Assembly: GCA_902799685.1 (NCBI GenBank)
Contig: CADCBO010000007.1
Coordinates: 36,205-100,204, forward strand
Direction of reading: 5' to 3'
From: an uncultured Bacteroidales bacterium
GTDB lineage: Bacteria; Bacteroidota; Bacteroidia; Bacteroidales; Bacteroidaceae
Length of the DNA: 64,000 nt
Shown: piece after piece, positions 14,287 to 45,479 of the stretch
How the letters are laid out: each line of letters starts with the position of its first letter
Position numbering within the stretch: position 1 is the stretch's first letter
Made by a program: the position numbers and the translations under genes
Notes under the pieces: model-generated
Database searches by the model: none
Told to the model about the DNA's origin: nothing
The model's input: the letters and a program-made list of their open reading frames with translations, nothing else

Positions 14287-15570
14287 ATGGAGAGTACCGA
14301 GGACAAACCCAAACGCAGGCAACTGCTTAACGGAGACCGAACCATATGGGCAATGGTGTTCGTTCTGTGCGCCATATCATTGGTAGAGGTGTTCAGTGCG
14401 AGCAGTCGTCTCACTTTCGGCAAGGAGAGTTTCCTGACACCTATCATATCTCATTCCGTGCATCTTGGCATAGGTTTGGTGGGTATGTACCTGGTGCACC
14501 TGCTCCATTATAAGTGGTATAAGCTGTTCCCGGTATTGCTGGTTCCGCTGTCTGTCATATTGTTGGCTTACCTTTCAGTACAAAGTGCAAGCTCTTCGGG
14601 GGCTGAACGCTGGATTAACATGGGCTTTTTCCAGTTGCAGCCGTCGGAACTGGGCAAGATAGGCGTGATCATGTCGGTAGCTTACTGGCTCTCCAAACTG
14701 AAACAGGACGATCCGCTGAGCCAGTCCAACACTTTCTGGAAGATAATGGCTCTGACCGGACTGGTGTGTCTGCTTATTGTGGGTGAGAACCTTTCAACTG
14801 CAGTGTTGCTGGCCGGGGTGATATTCGTTATGATGATATTGGGCGGCATAGCATGGAGACGAATGCTGGCCTTGACCGGAGTGGTGGTAGCGGTAGGAGT
14901 GGTGGCCGTGGTAATACTCCTGTTTGTTCCGGCTCAGACCATACGCGATTCCAGGATAATACCGTCACGTGCCACCACATGGCAGGCCAGATTGCAGGAT
15001 TTCTTCCAGCCGGGCAGCGAAGGTGATCCCACCGCATATGATTATGCCAGGACCGTGGCACCTGAGAAACCTCAGGAGACACATGCCAATATTGCGATAG
15101 CCACAAGCAACATACTGGGTAAGGGACCCGGCAACTCCGATGAACGCGACTATCTGCAGGAGGCCAGTTGTGACTTCATATACGCTATCATAATAGAGGA
15201 ACTTGGCATGGTGGGCGGCATATTTGTGATGTTGGTATATATAGTCTTGCTGTTCAGGGTGGGACGTATAGCCACCAGGTGCAAGGAGAAATATCCGGCC
15301 TATCTGGCGATGGGATTGGGTATGCTATTAGGGTTGCAGGCATTCATAAACATGTCGGTGGCGGTGGGGCTGTTCCCAGTGACCGGTCAGCCGCTGCCGC
15401 TTATAAGCAAAGGAGGTACGTCAGTCCTTATGACCAGCGGCTGTATTGGCATGCTTCTGGGTATCAGCAATACATTGGACAGGGAGGCTAACGGTGATCA
15501 TGTATTGGGGATGGAGACTGAGGTGCCTGCACCGATAGACGGCAACGAATCATTTGACGAAAACAACTGA
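14287..15570 (+). CDS. ftsW: SEDS-family peptidoglycan glycosyltransferase FtsW
   Basis: A 427-residue membrane protein with about ten hydrophobic segments. The first 15-20 residues are basic and cytoplasmic. SEDS features include Q-P-S-E-L-G-K after the fourth segment, the long extracytoplasmic loop at about 215-285 and the P-L-P-L-I-S-K-G-G-T motif at about 370-379. FtsW polymerises lipid II at the septum with FtsI. The spacing of nine bases on each side suggests one transcript from mraZ to ftsZ. Confidence 0.95.
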   Translation: MESTEDKPKRRQLLNGDRTIWAMVFVLCAISLVEVFSASSRLTFGKESFLTPIISHSVHLGIGLVGMYLVHLLHYKWYKLFPVLLVPLSVILLAYLSVQSASSSGAERWINMGFFQLQPSELGKIGVIMSVAYWLSKLKQDDPLSQSNTFWKIMALTGLVCLLIVGENLSTAVLLAGVIFVMMILGGIAWRRMLALTGVVVAVGVVAVVILLFVPAQTIRDSRIIPSRATTWQARLQDFFQPGSEGDPTAYDYARTVAPEKPQETHANIAIATSNILGKGPGNSDERDYLQEASCDFIYAIIIEELGMVGGIFVMLVYIVLLFRVGRIATRCKEKYPAYLAMGLGMLLGLQAFINMSVAVGLFPVTGQPLPLISKGGTSVLMTSGCIGMLLGISNTLDREANGDHVLGMETEVPAPIDGNESFDENN

Positions 15571-15578
15571 CTTTTCAT

Positions 15579-18083
15579 ATGGAGGCAAAACCAAGAATCA
15601 TCATCAGTGGAGGCGGTACAGGAGGACATATCTTCCCCGCCATTTCAATTGCCCATGCCATAAAGGCTATTAACCCCGATGCGGAGATACTGTTTGTTGG
15701 GGCTCAGGGGCGTATGGAGATGCAGCGTGTACCGCAGGCGGGATTCGAGATAAAGGGACTTCCTATCTGTGGGTTTGACCGTAAGAATCCCTTCAAGAAC
15801 ATTGCGGTGTTGTTCAAAATCATGCGTAGCCAGATTATGGCACGTCGCATAATACGTCAGTTCAAGCCTATGGTAGCTGTTGGTGTGGGCGGTTACGCCA
15901 GCGGGCCTACATTGAGGATTGCAGGCAAGATGGGTATTCCCACGCTGCTTCAGGAGCAGAACTCATATGCGGGTGTGACCAACAAGATTCTGGCCAAAAA
16001 AGCCGATAAGATATGTGTGGCATACGACGGGATGGAGCGTTTCTTCCCCGCCGACAAGATTATCAAGACAGGTAACCCTGTACGCCCCACCCTGACTAAA
16101 GGTGGCATAACCCGTAAGGAGGCTGCAAAGAAGATGGGGCTTGATCCTTCCAAACGCATTGTACTCATTGTAGGCGGCAGTCTGGGCGCACGCACACTGA
16201 ATGAAAGCGTGATGGCAAACCTGGACCTGATGCGTATGTCGGATGATGTCCAGTTTGTATGGCAGACAGGAAAGTTCTACTTTGAGGAGATGAAACAGCG
16301 TCTGGCCGGGCAGCAACCGGTAGAGAACCTGTTCCCTACGGAGTTTGTTCAGGATATGGATCTGGCATACGCTGCCGCCGACCTTGTGATTTCACGTGCC
16401 GGTGCGGGCACAATCTCGGAGCTGTGTCTGCTTGGCAAGCCTGTGATCCTGGTTCCGTCACCCAATGTGGCCGAGGACCATCAGACAAAGAATGCCTTGG
16501 CGCTGGCCGACAAGGACGCGGCAGTCCATATCCGTGATGTGGATGCACGCAGGGAGCTTATACCTGCCGCAGTGGACCTGGTAAAGGATACGGCTCGTCT
16601 GGAGCAGCTGCAAGGAAACATTCTTAAGCTGGCATATCATGATTCGGCCGAGATTATTGCGCATGAGGTTCTCAAACTGGCAGGATACGGAGGCACGGCA
16701 CTTAAGCTTGATGATATAACGTCAGTCTATTTCGTTGGCGCAGGAGGCATAGGGATGAGTGCCCTGGTGCGCTATTTCCTTGCACGCGGATGCAAGGTGG
16801 GCGGTTATGACAGGACATCTACAGAACTTACATCGGCATTGATAAAAGAGGGTGCAGTGATAGGTTTTGAGGATGATGTTGACAAGATTGATGAATGCTT
16901 CAGGGATCCTGATTCGACGCTTGTGGTATATACCCCGGCCATTCCTGCCGACAACCGTATTTTGCGGTGGTTCAACATCCACTGTTTTGACGTGCAGAAA
17001 CGTGCGCAGGTGCTGGGTACACTGACCCGCTCTCTGGATGGCCTGTGTGTGGCCGGTACACATGGCAAGACCACCACATCGTCTATGATTGCGTATATAC
17101 TTGACGGAACCGAGGAGGGCTGTAACGCATTCCTGGGCGGAATACTGAAGAACATCGGAAGTAATCTCATGATAAGCAGGGATAGCCGGCGTGTGGTTAT
17201 TGAGGCTGATGAGTTTGACCGCTCGTTCCATCATCTTACTCCGTTGCGTTCAGTGATAACTGCCGTCGATGCCGACCATCTTGACATATACGGCACGTAC
17301 GATGCTTATGTGGAGAGTTTCCGCAAATATACGTCGCTAATTAAGCCGGGCGGAGACCTGATACTGCACGTAGGGCTGGCCGACAAGATCATGCCACAGC
17401 TGCAGAAAGGCGTGAACCTGTACACTTACGGCCTGGATGAGGGTTATTTCCATGCAACCAATATCAGGATAGGTAACGGTGAACTTAAGTTTGACTATGT
17501 GTCACCATTGGGAAGTATTGCCGATGTGGAACTGGGCGTACCCATTCCGATAAATGTGGAGAATGCGGTGGCGGCTATGGCAATGGCTCAACTGAGCGGA
17601 GCACAGGATGAGGTGATACGTGACCGCATGGCCAGTTTCCGCGGATGCGACCGCCGTTTTGACTTTCATGTAAAGAATGATGAAAAGGTATATTTGAGCG
17701 ATTACGCCCACCATCCGGAAGAGATACGTCAGTGTGCCCTCTCATTGCGCAAGCTCTATGCGGACCGTAAGATAACCTGCATATTCCAGCCACATCTCTA
17801 TACCCGCACAAGGGATTTCTACAATGAGTTTGCCGACAGTCTCTCGTTGTTTGATGAGGTTTGGCTGCTGGAGATTTATCCCGCACGTGAACAGCCTATC
17901 CCAGGCGTGACAAGCAGTCTGCTGGCTGACAATATGAAACCTGGCGTGTGCAAGGGTATAATATCACGCAGCCAGGTGCTTGATACGGTCAGGTCCATCA
18001 AGGATGATGTACAGGTTCTGGTAACACTGGGTGCAGGCGATCTGGAAGATTATGTTGATTCTATAACAGAGATATTAAAGTAA
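15579..18083 (+). CDS. murG-murC: MurG-MurC fusion: lipid II synthase joined to UDP-MurNAc:L-alanine ligase
   Basis: One uninterrupted frame of 834 residues. Residues 1 to about 368 are MurG: G-G-G-T-G-G-H at about 11-17 and the UDP-GlcNAc-binding S-R-A-G-A-G-T-I-S-E-L segment at about 270. Residues from about 375 to the end are a complete MurC: V-Y-F-V-G-A-G-G-I-G-M-S-A dinucleotide-like fold, ATP loop G-T-H-G-K-T-T-T at about 492, and H-H-P-E-E-I near 711. Only eight or so residues (G-G-T-A-L-K-L-D) link the halves, roughly where the start codon of a separate murC would lie. MurG acts at the membrane, MurC in the cytoplasm. Related genomes normally carry two adjacent genes. A lost stop codon by sequencing error remains possible. 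Confidence 0.93.
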   Translation: MEAKPRIIISGGGTGGHIFPAISIAHAIKAINPDAEILFVGAQGRMEMQRVPQAGFEIKGLPICGFDRKNPFKNIAVLFKIMRSQIMARRIIRQFKPMVAVGVGGYASGPTLRIAGKMGIPTLLQEQNSYAGVTNKILAKKADKICVAYDGMERFFPADKIIKTGNPVRPTLTKGGITRKEAAKKMGLDPSKRIVLIVGGSLGARTLNESVMANLDLMRMSDDVQFVWQTGKFYFEEMKQRLAGQQPVENLFPTEFVQDMDLAYAAADLVISRAGAGTISELCLLGKPVILVPSPNVAEDHQTKNALALADKDAAVHIRDVDARRELIPAAVDLVKDTARLEQLQGNILKLAYHDSAEIIAHEVLKLAGYGGTALKLDDITSVYFVGAGGIGMSALVRYFLARGCKVGGYDRTSTELTSALIKEGAVIGFEDDVDKIDECFRDPDSTLVVYTPAIPADNRILRWFNIHCFDVQKRAQVLGTLTRSLDGLCVAGTHGKTTTSSMIAYILDGTEEGCNAFLGGILKNIGSNLMISRDSRRVVIEADEFDRSFHHLTPLRSVITAVDADHLDIYGTYDAYVESFRKYTSLIKPGGDLILHVGLADKIMPQLQKGVNLYTYGLDEGYFHATNIRIGNGELKFDYVSPLGSIADVELGVPIPINVENAVAAMAMAQLSGAQDEVIRDRMASFRGCDRRFDFHVKNDEKVYLSDYAHHPEEIRQCALSLRKLYADRKITCIFQPHLYTRTRDFYNEFADSLSLFDEVWLLEIYPAREQPIPGVTSSLLADNMKPGVCKGIISRSQVLDTVRSIKDDVQVLVTLGAGDLEDYVDSITEILK

Positions 18084-18088
18084 GACAG

Positions 18089-18823
18089 GTGTTCAAGAAG
18101 ATTCTTTCCATATTATCAGTTGTTCTCATAGCCGGATATCTGGCATTCTCCCTGATGGGTATGACCGACAGGCATGAGGATATCCGTATATGCAAGGGGG
18201 TGGACCTGCATATAACGGACAGCCTGCATTCTGACATGATAGATGAGGAGATGATCCTGGATTTGCTTAAGGAAAAAATGCTGGATCCTGTAGGTAAGCC
18301 TCTTGACAGGGTTGATGTCATCTCCATTGAGTCCGCTCTTGCCCAGCATCCGCTTGTGGGATCGGCGCAATGTTACAAGACCGGTGGTGACAAGGTCAGG
18401 ATAAACCTGTCAAGCAAGATACCTATGGTCAGGGTACTCAACAGCTACGGGCAGGATTTCTATGTGGACAGTCGTGGCGAGATACTGACACAGCATTCAC
18501 TCGCGGTGCAACTGCCTGTTGCTACCGGATACATAGACAGGCGTTTTGCATCGGAAGACCTTCTGAAAGTGGTTCGTGCCATAGATGAATCTGAATTCTG
18601 GAAAGCCCAGGTGGAGCAGATAGACGTGACTAAAGAAGGACAGATACAGCTTGTACCAAGGGTAGGAGACCATCTGCTTGTACTTGGCACTGCCGATGAT
18701 GTGGAGAACAAGCTGGACCGTCTTATGAATTTCTATGAGAAAGGTCTGGACAACGTGGGTTGGAACAAATATCGTACCATTAGCGTGGCGTACGATAATC
18801 AGGTTGTTTGTAAAAAACGATAA
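18089..18823 (+). CDS. ftsQ: Divisome protein FtsQ
   Basis: A 244-residue bitopic protein beginning with GTG (18089), five bases after the murG-murC stop. A very short cytoplasmic end is followed by a transmembrane helix at about residues 5-24, then a POTRA-like domain (about 30-100) and a beta domain. FtsQ links FtsL/B to the rest of the divisome. The sequence is poorly conserved, but size, topology and position between murC and ftsA are diagnostic. An ATG alternative does not exist nearby without deleting the membrane helix. Confidence 0.88.
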   Translation: MFKKILSILSVVLIAGYLAFSLMGMTDRHEDIRICKGVDLHITDSLHSDMIDEEMILDLLKEKMLDPVGKPLDRVDVISIESALAQHPLVGSAQCYKTGGDKVRINLSSKIPMVRVLNSYGQDFYVDSRGEILTQHSLAVQLPVATGYIDRRFASEDLLKVVRAIDESEFWKAQVEQIDVTKEGQIQLVPRVGDHLLVLGTADDVENKLDRLMNFYEKGLDNVGWNKYRTISVAYDNQVVCKKR

Positions 18824-18831
18824 AGGGATAA

Positions 18832-20340
18832 ATGGAAAACGACAAAGTGATTGTTGCTATTGAGCTTGGTTCATCCAAGATCTCAGGTGTGGCCGGCCAG
18901 ATCAAGGCCGACGGTTCACTCAAGGTCCTGGCATACGCCTGGACTCCCTCGTCTTCATGCATAAGGCATGGAGCTGTTTATAATCTGGACAAGACAGCCA
19001 ACGCCATTGCCGAGGTGGTTGGCAGACTGGACACCATTCTTTCCACACGGATAGAGAAGGTTTATGTGGGATATAACGCAAAAGGACTCAGGTCTGTGAT
19101 AAGCAGGGTTGAGCATAAGTTTGATGAAGAGACTGTGGTAAGTCAGGAGGTTATAGACGACATGTTCCAGCAGTGCAGCGAGATAGAGTATGACGGATAT
19201 GTCAACCTGTTCCAGGAGTCTCAGGAATATGTCGTTGACAACAAGCGCGGTACAGAGACCGATCCCATGGGTGTGGCCTGCCGTTCACTTGAAGGCAATT
19301 ACCTGAACATACTGCTTAAGAAACAGGTTGCAGACTATATTGGACAATGCTTCCGTACGGCTCAGGTCCAGATTCTGGACGGATACGTGGCTCCGATGGT
19401 CCAGGCCGACGCCGTGCTAACCGATGATGACCGCCAGCAGGGATGCGCACTGGTAGATTATGGTGCCGATACCACTACGGTATCAGTTTATAAGAATGGC
19501 CTGATGCGTTTCTTGCGTGTCATACCGCTGGGTAGTTCTCTTATAACACGCGACCTGTCATCCGTTCTTAAGATAGAGATAGAGCAGGCGGAGCAGCTCA
19601 AGTGCACCTACGGACTATGTAACCTGATAGGCAGTCAGGATGCTGATGAGACAATAACGCTTAATGACCGTAAGGTAATTCTCAAGGAGATAGGTGACAT
19701 AATTGAAGCACGTAATGAGGAGATTATACGCAATGTATGTGCACAGATAAAGGCATCGGGCTACAGCGAAGTGCTCTATGCTGGTATAGTGCTTACGGGT
19801 GGCGGCTCCCAGTTGCGTCAGCTGGACCAGGTGTTTGCCAAGCTCATGCCTTCCATGCGCAAACCCCGTTTGGCCATTGAGCCGGCCTGCGGCGTAATAT
19901 GGAATGAACAGAGCTGGAAACGCGGTGACGGTTCACAGCTGGCACTGTTGTCTGTAATGGCCAAGGGCGATGAAAACTGCTGCGATCTCAAGCCGATGGA
20001 TGAGATAGACAAGTTGACTCCTGAGGATCAGGACAAGGTGGTTCAGCAGAGCCTGTTTACTGAAGAAGGCGAGAGCGCTCAGGAGGAAAAGGACCGCAAG
20101 GAAGAGGAAGAGCGGAAGCAGGCCATGATAGCGGCTGCCGAACAGGAGAAGGAGAAAGAGCAGAAAGAAAAAGAAGGATCAGGGTATATCGGCGGCAAGA
20201 AGAAAAAGAACATGTTCCAGCGTTTCTATGAAAGTCTGATGAATGCCGGCGAGGATTTCTTTGACGGCGAGAAGGAGGAGAAGGAGCGTAAGGCACAGGA
20301 AGAACAGGAGAAACAGGAAACACAGGATTCCGCGCAATAA
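18832..20340 (+). CDS. ftsA: Actin-like divisome protein FtsA with long charged C-terminus
   Basis: A 502-residue actin-fold ATPase that anchors FtsZ to the membrane. The phosphate-1 motif I-E-L-G-S-S-K-I lies at residues 8-15 and the adenosine motif G-I-V-L-T-G-G-G-S near residue 320. After about residue 400 comes a 100-residue extension of Lys/Glu-rich coiled coil. Inside it is an amphipathic helix, N-M-F-Q-R-F-Y-E-S-L-M, at about 460-470, followed again by an acidic charged tail. The helix is probably the membrane-targeting sequence, here not at the extreme end. Nine bases follow ftsQ. Confidence 0.94.
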   Translation: MENDKVIVAIELGSSKISGVAGQIKADGSLKVLAYAWTPSSSCIRHGAVYNLDKTANAIAEVVGRLDTILSTRIEKVYVGYNAKGLRSVISRVEHKFDEETVVSQEVIDDMFQQCSEIEYDGYVNLFQESQEYVVDNKRGTETDPMGVACRSLEGNYLNILLKKQVADYIGQCFRTAQVQILDGYVAPMVQADAVLTDDDRQQGCALVDYGADTTTVSVYKNGLMRFLRVIPLGSSLITRDLSSVLKIEIEQAEQLKCTYGLCNLIGSQDADETITLNDRKVILKEIGDIIEARNEEIIRNVCAQIKASGYSEVLYAGIVLTGGGSQLRQLDQVFAKLMPSMRKPRLAIEPACGVIWNEQSWKRGDGSQLALLSVMAKGDENCCDLKPMDEIDKLTPEDQDKVVQQSLFTEEGESAQEEKDRKEEEERKQAMIAAAEQEKEKEQKEKEGSGYIGGKKKKNMFQRFYESLMNAGEDFFDGEKEEKERKAQEEQEKQETQDSAQ

Positions 20341-42785: not shown

Positions 42786-45479
42786 ATGAGCGACGATACA
42801 GAGGGTATGGATGAGGAAGTACGTGCGGAGGATGCAACAGTGATTGATGACAGTCAGGAGACAGGTCATTCATCATATCATCCTGTCAAAGATGACAACG
42901 GCATGATACGGCACCAGCTTTCAGGTATGTATCAGGGCTGGTTTCTGGACTATGCCTCATATGTTATCCTGGAGAGAGCCGTGCCTCATTTCGTGGATGG
43001 CCTCAAACCTGTACAGCGCCGTATCCTGCACTCCATGAAACGTCTGGATGACGGTCGTTTCAACAAGGTGGCCAATATTGTAGGCCATACAATGCAGTTC
43101 CATCCTCACGGAGATGCATCCATAGGTGATGCCCTGGTTCAGATGGGGCAGAAGGACCTGCTAATAGAGTGTCAGGGAAACTGGGGAAACATCCTTACAG
43201 GCCACCGCGCCGCCGCACCCCGATACATTGAGGCCCGTCTGTCCAAGTTCGCTCTTGAAACCCTGTTCAATCCCAAGACAACTGAGTGGAAGGCTTCGTA
43301 TGACGGTCGTAACAAGGAGCCGGTCACACTGCCGGTCAAGTTCCCGCTGCTGCTTGCACAGGGGGCGGAGGGCATCGCTGTAGGATTGTCCTGCAAAATA
43401 CTTCCGCATAACTTCAACGAGCTTTGCGATGCTGCGGTTTCATATCTAAACGGTGAGGAATTCCACCTTTATCCCGATTTCCAGACAGGCGGAGCCATAG
43501 ATGTGTCACGTTACAATGACGGTGAGCGTGGCGGTATGGTCCGCATACGTGCCAAGATATCGAAAGAGGCTGACAACAAGACTATCGTCATCACGGAGAT
43601 TCCGTATGGCGAGAACGTGATGACCCTGTGTGATTCCATCGTGAAGGCCGGTGAGAAGGGCAAGATTAAGATCCGCAAGGTTGAGAACCTTACAGCCGAC
43701 AAGGTTGAGATACGCATTTCTTTGGCCCCGGGAGTATCATCGGACAAGACCATAGACGCCCTGTACGCATTTACCAACTGCGAGGTGAGCATATCGCCCA
43801 ACTGCTGTGTCATTGATGAGAACAAACCTCATTTCCTGACGGTGAGCGATGTGCTGCGCAAATCGGTCGATAACACCAAGGAACTGTTGCGCCGAGAGCT
43901 GGAGATAGAGCGCGGCGAGATAATGGAGCAGCTTCATTTTGCATCGTTGGAGAAGATTTTCATAGAAGAGCGCATCTATAAGGACCGTGAGTTTGAAGAG
44001 GCTCCCACCATGGATGCCGCCTGCGAGCATATCGATGACCGTCTCACTCCTTACTACCCGCAGATGATACGTGAGGTGACCAAGGAGGATATCCTTAAGC
44101 TGATGGAGATAAAGATGGCCCGCATCCTGAAATTCAACAAGGACAAGGCAGAGGAGGCCATTGCCCGTATGAAGTCCGATATTGCCCGCATTGACAAGGA
44201 CCTGGCCAATATGGTAGGCGTAACTATCAGGTGGTTCCGTATGCTCAAGGACAAGTATGGGGCGCAATACGAGCGCAAGACCGAGATCAAGAACTTTGAC
44301 ACCATTGTGGCCACAAAGGTGGTCGAGGCCAACCAGAAACTCTACATAAACCGTGCCGACGGCTTTATAGGCATGGAGCTTAAGAAAGACGAGTACGTAT
44401 GCAACTGTTCTGACCTGGATGACATAATCCTGTTCTACAAGGATGGCCGTTACAAGGTTGTAAAGGTGGCAGACAAACTGTTTGTGGGTCAGGGTGTACT
44501 CTATCTTGACGTGTTCAAGAAGAATGACAAGCGTACCATATACAATGTGGTCTATCGTGACGGCCGCAACGGGGCTTACTTCATGAAGAGGTTTGCCGCT
44601 ACCGGCCTGACCCGTGACAAGGAGTATGACCTGACACAGGGAAAGGCCGGATCCAAGGTCATGTATTTCAGCGCTAACCACAATGGTGAGGCCGAGGTCA
44701 TAAAGATTACTCTCAAACCAAATCCGAAACTCAAGAAACCGGTGTTTGACAGGGATTTCAGCGAGTTGATGATAAAAGGCCGTCAGTCTATGGGCAACCT
44801 GCTTACGCGCAACGAGGTGCAGCGCATAGGTCTCAAGTCACAGGGAACATCCACCTTGGGCGGCCGTAAGGTTTGGTTTGACAAGGATATACTGCGCCTG
44901 GACTTTGACGGCCACGGCGAGTATCTGGGTGAGTTTGACAGCGATGACCTTCTGCTTGTGATAAACACTGACGGTGAATACTACACTACTGCACCCGATG
45001 CCAACTGTCACTTTGATGCCGGCCTTATACGCATAGAGAAATATGATCAGGGTAAAGTCTGGACCGCCCTGTTGTTTGACGCATCGCAGAAAGGTTATCT
45101 GTACCTTAAGAGGTTCAATCTGGATCCGTCGTCCAAACGCATAAACATACTGGGCGAAGAGAAGGGTAGCCGTCTGGTGCTGTTAACAGATACCGTTTAT
45201 CCGCGTCTATTGGTTACCATGGGCGGTGCCGACAGTTTCCGCGAGCCGATGGAGCTGGATGCCGAGAGTTTTGTGGGAGTGAAAGGAGTGAAGGCCCGTG
45301 GACGCAGGGTTACGGCATTCAAAGTACAGGATGTGGAAGAACTTGAGCCGTTGCGTATGCCGGAACCAGATCAGGAACCTGTAAATGCCGATATAGACCC
45401 GGATGATACGGGAAATCAGGGTCAGCCGGATGAAGAAAATACTGAAAATGTTGATGACGGTCAACTCTCACTGTTCTAA
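42786..45479 (+). CDS. parC: DNA topoisomerase IV subunit A (ParC-type)
   Basis: An 897-residue type IIA topoisomerase cleavage subunit. An acidic 35-residue N-terminal tail precedes the winged-helix domain; H-P-H-G-D-A-S-I and R-A-A-A-P-R-Y-I-E-A-R-L contain the DNA-cleaving Tyr147. A coiled coil lies at about 430-480, and a beta-pinwheel-like C-terminal domain from about 510 lacks an obvious GyrA box. That absence and the length favour ParC over GyrA. It decatenates daughter chromosomes with ParE, which is not in this window. The end, G-Q-L-S-L-F, overlaps the next gene by 50 bases. Confidence 0.88.
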   Translation: MSDDTEGMDEEVRAEDATVIDDSQETGHSSYHPVKDDNGMIRHQLSGMYQGWFLDYASYVILERAVPHFVDGLKPVQRRILHSMKRLDDGRFNKVANIVGHTMQFHPHGDASIGDALVQMGQKDLLIECQGNWGNILTGHRAAAPRYIEARLSKFALETLFNPKTTEWKASYDGRNKEPVTLPVKFPLLLAQGAEGIAVGLSCKILPHNFNELCDAAVSYLNGEEFHLYPDFQTGGAIDVSRYNDGERGGMVRIRAKISKEADNKTIVITEIPYGENVMTLCDSIVKAGEKGKIKIRKVENLTADKVEIRISLAPGVSSDKTIDALYAFTNCEVSISPNCCVIDENKPHFLTVSDVLRKSVDNTKELLRRELEIERGEIMEQLHFASLEKIFIEERIYKDREFEEAPTMDAACEHIDDRLTPYYPQMIREVTKEDILKLMEIKMARILKFNKDKAEEAIARMKSDIARIDKDLANMVGVTIRWFRMLKDKYGAQYERKTEIKNFDTIVATKVVEANQKLYINRADGFIGMELKKDEYVCNCSDLDDIILFYKDGRYKVVKVADKLFVGQGVLYLDVFKKNDKRTIYNVVYRDGRNGAYFMKRFAATGLTRDKEYDLTQGKAGSKVMYFSANHNGEAEVIKITLKPNPKLKKPVFDRDFSELMIKGRQSMGNLLTRNEVQRIGLKSQGTSTLGGRKVWFDKDILRLDFDGHGEYLGEFDSDDLLLVINTDGEYYTTAPDANCHFDAGLIRIEKYDQGKVWTALLFDASQKGYLYLKRFNLDPSSKRINILGEEKGSRLVLLTDTVYPRLLVTMGGADSFREPMELDAESFVGVKGVKARGRRVTAFKVQDVEELEPLRMPEPDQEPVNADIDPDDTGNQGQPDEENTENVDDGQLSLF

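Follow-up and report, generated by a model that had tools for sequence, protein, structure and literature searches.

The window analyzed here, a stretch of 64,000 nucleotides from contig CADCBO010000007.1 of an uncultured Bacteroidales bacterium, harbors a dcw cluster in which murG and murC share one gene. Based on Pfam domains and position, the genes upstream of the fusion are mraW, a PASTA-bearing penicillin-binding protein gene, murE, mraY, murD and ftsW, and those downstream are ftsQ, ftsA and ftsZ. Between the penicillin-binding protein gene and ftsZ there are eight gaps of 5-13 bases at which the neighboring genes are unfused. Apart from the unusual joint between murG and murC, the dcw cluster is an ordinary one. 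The features that matter for this joint are the following.

14287..15570, + strand: ftsW (PF01098), directly upstream of the fusion with 8 bases between
15579..18083, + strand: murG-murC fusion gene, 834 codons, in a frame shared without a break by 31 of 37 genus genomes
15579..16682, + strand: MurG part, residues 1-368 (Pfam PF03033 and PF04101; TIGR01133 above cut-off)
16683..16724, + strand: linker, residues 369-382 (GYGGTALKLDDITS), without in-frame ATG, GTG or TTG, its second half resembling the native MurC N-terminus
16725..18080, + strand: MurC part, residues 383-834 (Pfam PF01225, PF08245 and PF02875; TIGR01082 at 321.7 bits, under cut-off; MurC relatives in the PDB)
18089..18823, + strand: ftsQ (PF03799), directly downstream of the fusion with 5 bases between

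A separate observation concerns FtsA (502 aa; 18832-20340), which carries a long charged C-terminal tail past its Pfam domains. Judged by eye, the tail may contain an amphipathic helix, placed not at its end but well ahead of it.

The open reading frame 15579..18083 runs on the + strand from an ATG start to a TAA stop as a single stop-free frame. The MurG part corresponds to the N-acetylglucosaminyltransferase that makes lipid II. In this half Glyco_transf_28 (residues 7-146) and Glyco_tran_28_C (194-342) both exceed the Pfam gathering score, and the C-terminal half contains the three Mur ligase domains in order, Mur_ligase (383-484), Mur_ligase_M (491-670) and Mur_ligase_C (692-819), all likewise above gathering score. 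The Pfam search for a Ddl or MurB domain on the fusion protein found none, only the MurG and Mur ligase domains. The NCBIfam murG model TIGR01133 matches residues 5-362 with 282.4 bits against a cut-off of 250.25, while the murC model TIGR01082 matches residues 383-825 with 321.7 bits and thus stays below its cut-off of 335.1. Since the stand-alone MurC proteins of relatives also scored below this cut-off in 3 of 3 cases tested (333.9, 332.0 and 315.6 bits), the low score is no sign of MurC decay. A PDB search matched known MurG and MurC enzymes to the respective halves, the best matches over the C-terminal half being MurC. Conserved motifs point in the same direction. The motifs GGGTGGHxFPA, GGYASGP, GGSLGA, SRAGA and EDHQTKNA, which we take to be the glycine-loop and donor-site motifs of MurG, occur in 31, 31, 31, 31 and 28 of the 31 fused genus proteins, and GTHGKTTT and DYAHHP, presumably signature motifs of MurC, each in all 31. 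Altogether 13 patterns covering both halves were each present in 27-31 of these 31 proteins. A second MurG or MurC was not found at E <= 0.001 in the window's own genome, an incomplete draft of 37 contigs that is 85.83% complete; the two matches at this threshold are the fusion locus itself and a weak one (24% identity, query residues 449-700).

The two enzyme parts are joined by 14 residues, G369-S382, reaching from the end of the MurG match to the MurC strand VYFVG. A linker had been predicted from the sequence and is there, slightly longer than the eight to ten residues then proposed. About half of it, KLDDITS, aligns with the N-terminus of stand-alone MurC minus the Met. Codons 1-7 have no clear counterpart in stand-alone MurC, and the first few of them may be the old MurG tail. 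In the fused genus set the junction is kept at 14-16 codons and in the same frame, and its codons vary between genomes. The dN/dS ratio of the linker is 0.157, compared to 0.060 for MurG and 0.062 for MurC, in 13 pairs of related fused genomes that were hand-chosen from the flank-gene tree described below and are not all sisters. Linker codons 1-7 have a pN/pS of 0.447 (bootstrap over pairs 0.249-0.707; third-position differences 39/71), the next seven codons one of 0.134 (third-position differences 42/59). An untranslated spacer is expected to have a pN/pS of about 1, and the constraint on the junction codons therefore indicates that the junction is read and translated in the frame of MurG.

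We have read all 37 junctions of the genus sample, which includes the window's own genome, on the DNA. The continuous frame extends over essentially the whole query in 31 genomes, and the ORF, the domain searches and these genomes agree with the initial proposal of MurG and MurC, both apparently complete, fused in one frame of 834 residues. Six congeners (G001, G018, G024, G027, G030 and G032) have separate adjacent genes, with murC in another frame and starting 20-47 bases downstream of where the MurG match stops. Separate genes in close relatives had been named beforehand as evidence against a fusion; relatives at 87-91% identity to the query are fused in 19 of 19 cases, and the unfused congeners are found only at 61-73%. 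A tree of seven neighboring proteins, from which MurG and MurC were left out, was computed for 41 genomes (the 37 of the genus and 4 outgroups). It unites the fused 31 as a single clade (95/97) with one change of state, under a plain model without mixture and with a program warning of long branches for the outgroups and G018; four proteins are missing in one outgroup, and FtsZ is missing in G004. Four of the unfused genomes are sister to the fused clade in this tree and two branch deeper. Trees of MurG and MurC themselves leave G003 and G035 outside, which gives two changes of state (branch 98/92) and suggested two independent fusions within the genus. This is disfavored because the flank genes form one clade and the AU test on MurG and MurC does not reject a single fused clade (p 0.397). 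The most likely course is thus a single fusion event in the common ancestor of the 31 fused species, out of 37 sampled from the genus. Set against the unfused congeners, the junction suggests that the murG stop and the initial Met of murC were lost and that hardly any foreign sequence, if any, was gained.

A set of 80 loci, all with a one-frame match across both genes, over-represents in-frame neighbors. Two of them (L032 and L040) are fused; their junctions are those of G016 and G035, so they were not counted as extra genomes. The family sample comprised 201 genomes, 12 of the window's genus and 189 others, with four candidates scored per genome. A stop-free full-length match was found in 9 of the 12 and, among the matches listed, which full-length matches head, in none of the 189. 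In 37 of these 189 the two genes share a frame that is interrupted by one or more stops, and 2 lack any match. Eight family rows with a match to MurC only, at 865-1007 aa, had suggested a fusion of MurC to its downstream gene. This candidate was rejected in the six that were read (L136-L141), in which the two genes share a frame but are separated by stops. Because of these intervening stops a reported frame length is no proof of fusion, and fusions outside the genus were counted as confirmed only after the DNA had been read. Likewise G1018, with a reported frame of 960 aa, was rejected as a fusion, its genes being separate on the DNA. Adjacency of the two genes is usual; an exception is the relative L121 (G038), where about 2.3 kb of other sequence lie between murG and murC. 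A plasmid search with the junction returned a single short match, to murC only, and was uninformative. The 49-kb record NZ_OY725928.1 (Bacteroides finegoldii; region 43354-43419), which is filed as a plasmid, has an annotated murC and is possibly a misfiled piece of chromosome.

In the order sample 62 of 393 genomes drawn matched at E <= 1e-180 and in the phylum sample 30 of 395 at E <= 1e-150, thresholds that weaker-scoring fusions would escape. Five stop-free full-length fusions from four families lie outside the genus in the order sample (G416, G420, G275, G411 and G310); all were confirmed on the DNA, and their linkers differ. Among the 30 phylum matches no other stop-free full-length fusion was found, the window's own genome standing alone. 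In the family and order samples the two genes are more often separate than fused, as had been assumed. The rarity that the sequence-only reading implied does not stand, with fusions already in print according to the parts available of two papers (PMC4929429, PMC6420597) and present in four other families of the order. The depth of sampling around the five fusions varies. Both available genomes of the genus of G310 carry the fusion. In the family of G420 one of three genomes is fused, G504 having separate parts and G320 a MurC match only, and G275 is the single genome available for its family. The genus of G416 (family f91) is represented by 38 genomes, 9 of them with stop-free full-length matches. 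Here 28 copies from 27 of the 38 genomes were read on the DNA, and 11 were fused and 17 separate. These counts include contaminated bins, G1014 and G1017 at 7% and G1022, which has both a fused and a separate copy, at 6%. A single fused clade is rejected in this genus (AU p 0.0002), and the MurG and MurC tree requires at least eight changes of state, a count that is blind to repeated gains versus gains followed by losses and comes from a tree built from the fused genes themselves. On this tree the scatter is one of repeated gain or loss. The scatter of fused genomes among unfused relatives in a MurG and MurC tree suggests that each of the other families acquired its fusion independently, and separately from the one in the window.

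Two further observations were made in the genus of G416. In G1006, G1009, G1020, G1022, G1033 and G1036 the match to MurC is interrupted around query residue 620, which suggests a small insertion or a diverged MurC stretch in part of the genus. The linker of the fused protein L198 (G1006) consists of successive near-repeats (SSPFTLHSSPFTLHSSLFTLHSS) and looks like a short tandem DNA repeat that has turned into a linker.

MurC adds L-Ala to UDP-MurNAc, and MurG converts lipid I to lipid II at the inner face of the membrane. MurD, MurE, MurF and MraY act between the two. Taken together, the data on frame, domains, motifs and junction make it very probable that the single dcw-cluster gene of the window encodes a genuine bifunctional MurG-MurC enzyme as a single chain. 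In the ancestor, the murG stop and the murC start codon would have been lost between adjacent genes, and the product would be a chain of about 90 kDa that stays uncleaved and has both sites active. According to the part available of one paper, the N-domain of MurG binds the membrane through a hydrophobic patch seen in the E. coli structure, and MurG binds MurD, MurE and MurF or the MurE-MurF fusion, forms oligomers and has been proposed as a Mur scaffold (PMC6420597). A direct test of MurG-MurC binding was not found in that part of the paper (PMC6420597). In the fusion the membrane-binding N-domain would bring MurC to the membrane via the short linker at the C-terminal end of MurG, and the MurG-MurC contact would become permanent. 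UDP-MurNAc-L-Ala would then be made near MraY and MurG, with the first ligase in a 1:1 ratio to the last cytoplasmic enzyme. The likeliest effect would be placement and stoichiometry, that is scaffolding; a direct substrate channel or hand-over is not expected, since the steps of MurC and MurG are not consecutive. The tether between entry and exit of the pathway and the fixed ratio that the sequence-only reading had envisaged would follow only if the chain stays uncleaved. A benefit from such tethering is less likely than the bifunctional single chain itself. It is doubtful, though conceivable, that selection in Bacteroidales has repeatedly favored a physical MurC-MurG link because the cytoplasmic pathway has its membrane scaffold in MurG; the fusion would then keep the ligase beside lipid II synthesis and the ratio fixed. 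If this were true, the proposed Mur multienzyme complex would have a natural model in the fused genus.

The benefit is the only step that a neutral origin denies. Adjacent genes may have been joined by loss of a stop or by a small indel, giving a product equal to the two proteins without any gain from tethering, and with the MurC start lost the reversal would be harder. The short distance at which murC begins in the unfused congeners speaks for such an origin, and the retention of the fusion in all 31 descendants could be a ratchet. In the genus of G416 fused and unfused copies are interleaved and the linkers differ, which suggests that the fusion can be tolerated without clear benefit; the back-and-forth fits a cost-free change equally well. 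Against neutrality it may be held that the eight short gaps between the penicillin-binding protein gene and ftsZ stay unfused. This argument is weak, because seven of the eight gaps presumably adjoin a membrane protein on one side. We regard a neutral fusion as having only slightly less than an even chance, and on the question of benefit it carries near equal weight.

A single bifunctional chain also has to be weighed against the production of two proteins from the one frame, by internal initiation or by proteolysis of the linker. Beyond the genus, an in-frame ATG persists in the linker of at least three fused genes (L132, L134 and L135), and within the genus an ATG, GTG or TTG is kept in 10 of the 31 fused genomes (an ATG in 3). 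Against this, the linkers of the other 21 have no ATG, GTG or TTG able to start MurC alone. In the linker of the window there is likewise none, and the next start-like codon is the ATG within the GGIGMS motif of MurC. Initiation there would therefore yield a MurC minus its first strand and the glycine loop. Thus, for most of the clade it is unlikely that internal initiation yields a separate, whole MurC, and two proteins in the cell are altogether a rather remote prospect. An assembly or sequencing error that masks a stop or frameshift at the junction, for which the draft state of the genome could be cited, is rejected as having next to no probability, since 31 of 37 genus genomes keep this frame while their linker codons vary, and since the junction codons are under constraint.

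The fusion is real, conserved and recurrent in the order, and it offers a handle on the Mur-complex question. Whether a Mur complex exists and MurG scaffolds it is debated, and the part available of a 2016 review ties this question to the disappointing results that Mur inhibitors have given in cells (PMC4929429). A fusion of non-consecutive enzymes in several lineages, clade-wide in one of them, provides natural evidence that a position on MurG is tolerated by MurC and perhaps even of advantage to it. The fusion provides a covalently joined pair for structural work and imaging, and the unfused sister species are at hand for comparison. New here are the Bacteroidaceae clade in which all sampled members are fused, the translated junction, the probable single origin and the fusions in four other families. 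Among the papers listed by a search of the open-access literature there was neither biochemistry of any MurG-MurC fusion nor an earlier report of these Bacteroidales fusions.

Fusions of Mur enzymes have been described before, and the comparison here follows the parts of the sources that were available. The authors of the 2016 review identified murG/murC fusions, naming the actinomycete C. gilvus in the legend of their Figure 3; they point out that the two steps are not sequential and hold that the fusion supports a Mur complex (PMC4929429). MurG/MurC fusions are mentioned again, with no organism given, in a later paper (PMC6420597). Like the fusions reported in 2016, the gene described here lies in the dcw cluster and encodes the two enzymes without a break in the frame, and it shares with the C. 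gilvus fusion the order in which the enzymes are named (PMC4929429). Unlike in that case, the host is a member of the Bacteroidales and not an actinomycete, a comparison made by description. For the C. gilvus fusion the text consulted states neither a linker nor a length nor any biochemistry. Since the nearest outgroups of the fused clade are unfused congeners, we infer an origin independent of the actinomycete fusion. The MurB/MurC fusion of Verrucomicrobia likewise joins MurC to a pathway enzyme and is limited to certain lineages, and its gene complements E. coli murB and murC mutants (PMC4803751). There, however, MurC is joined to MurB, which precedes it in the pathway, and forms the N-terminal part, as fragments from Met1 were cloned as murC (PMC4803751). 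The Chlamydia MurC-Ddl protein is also bifunctional with a partner that does not catalyze the next step (PMC4803751, PMC12283558), but this partner is the D-Ala-D-Ala ligase, whereas here it is MurG, placed N-terminal to MurC. In Bordetella pertussis MurE-MurF two Mur enzymes also form one protein, which binds MurG with a micromolar KD; in contrast to the fusion in the window, these act in consecutive steps and both partners are Mur ligases (PMC6420597). The MurG-MurC fusion is thus of a known kind, of which the window holds a well-supported new example.
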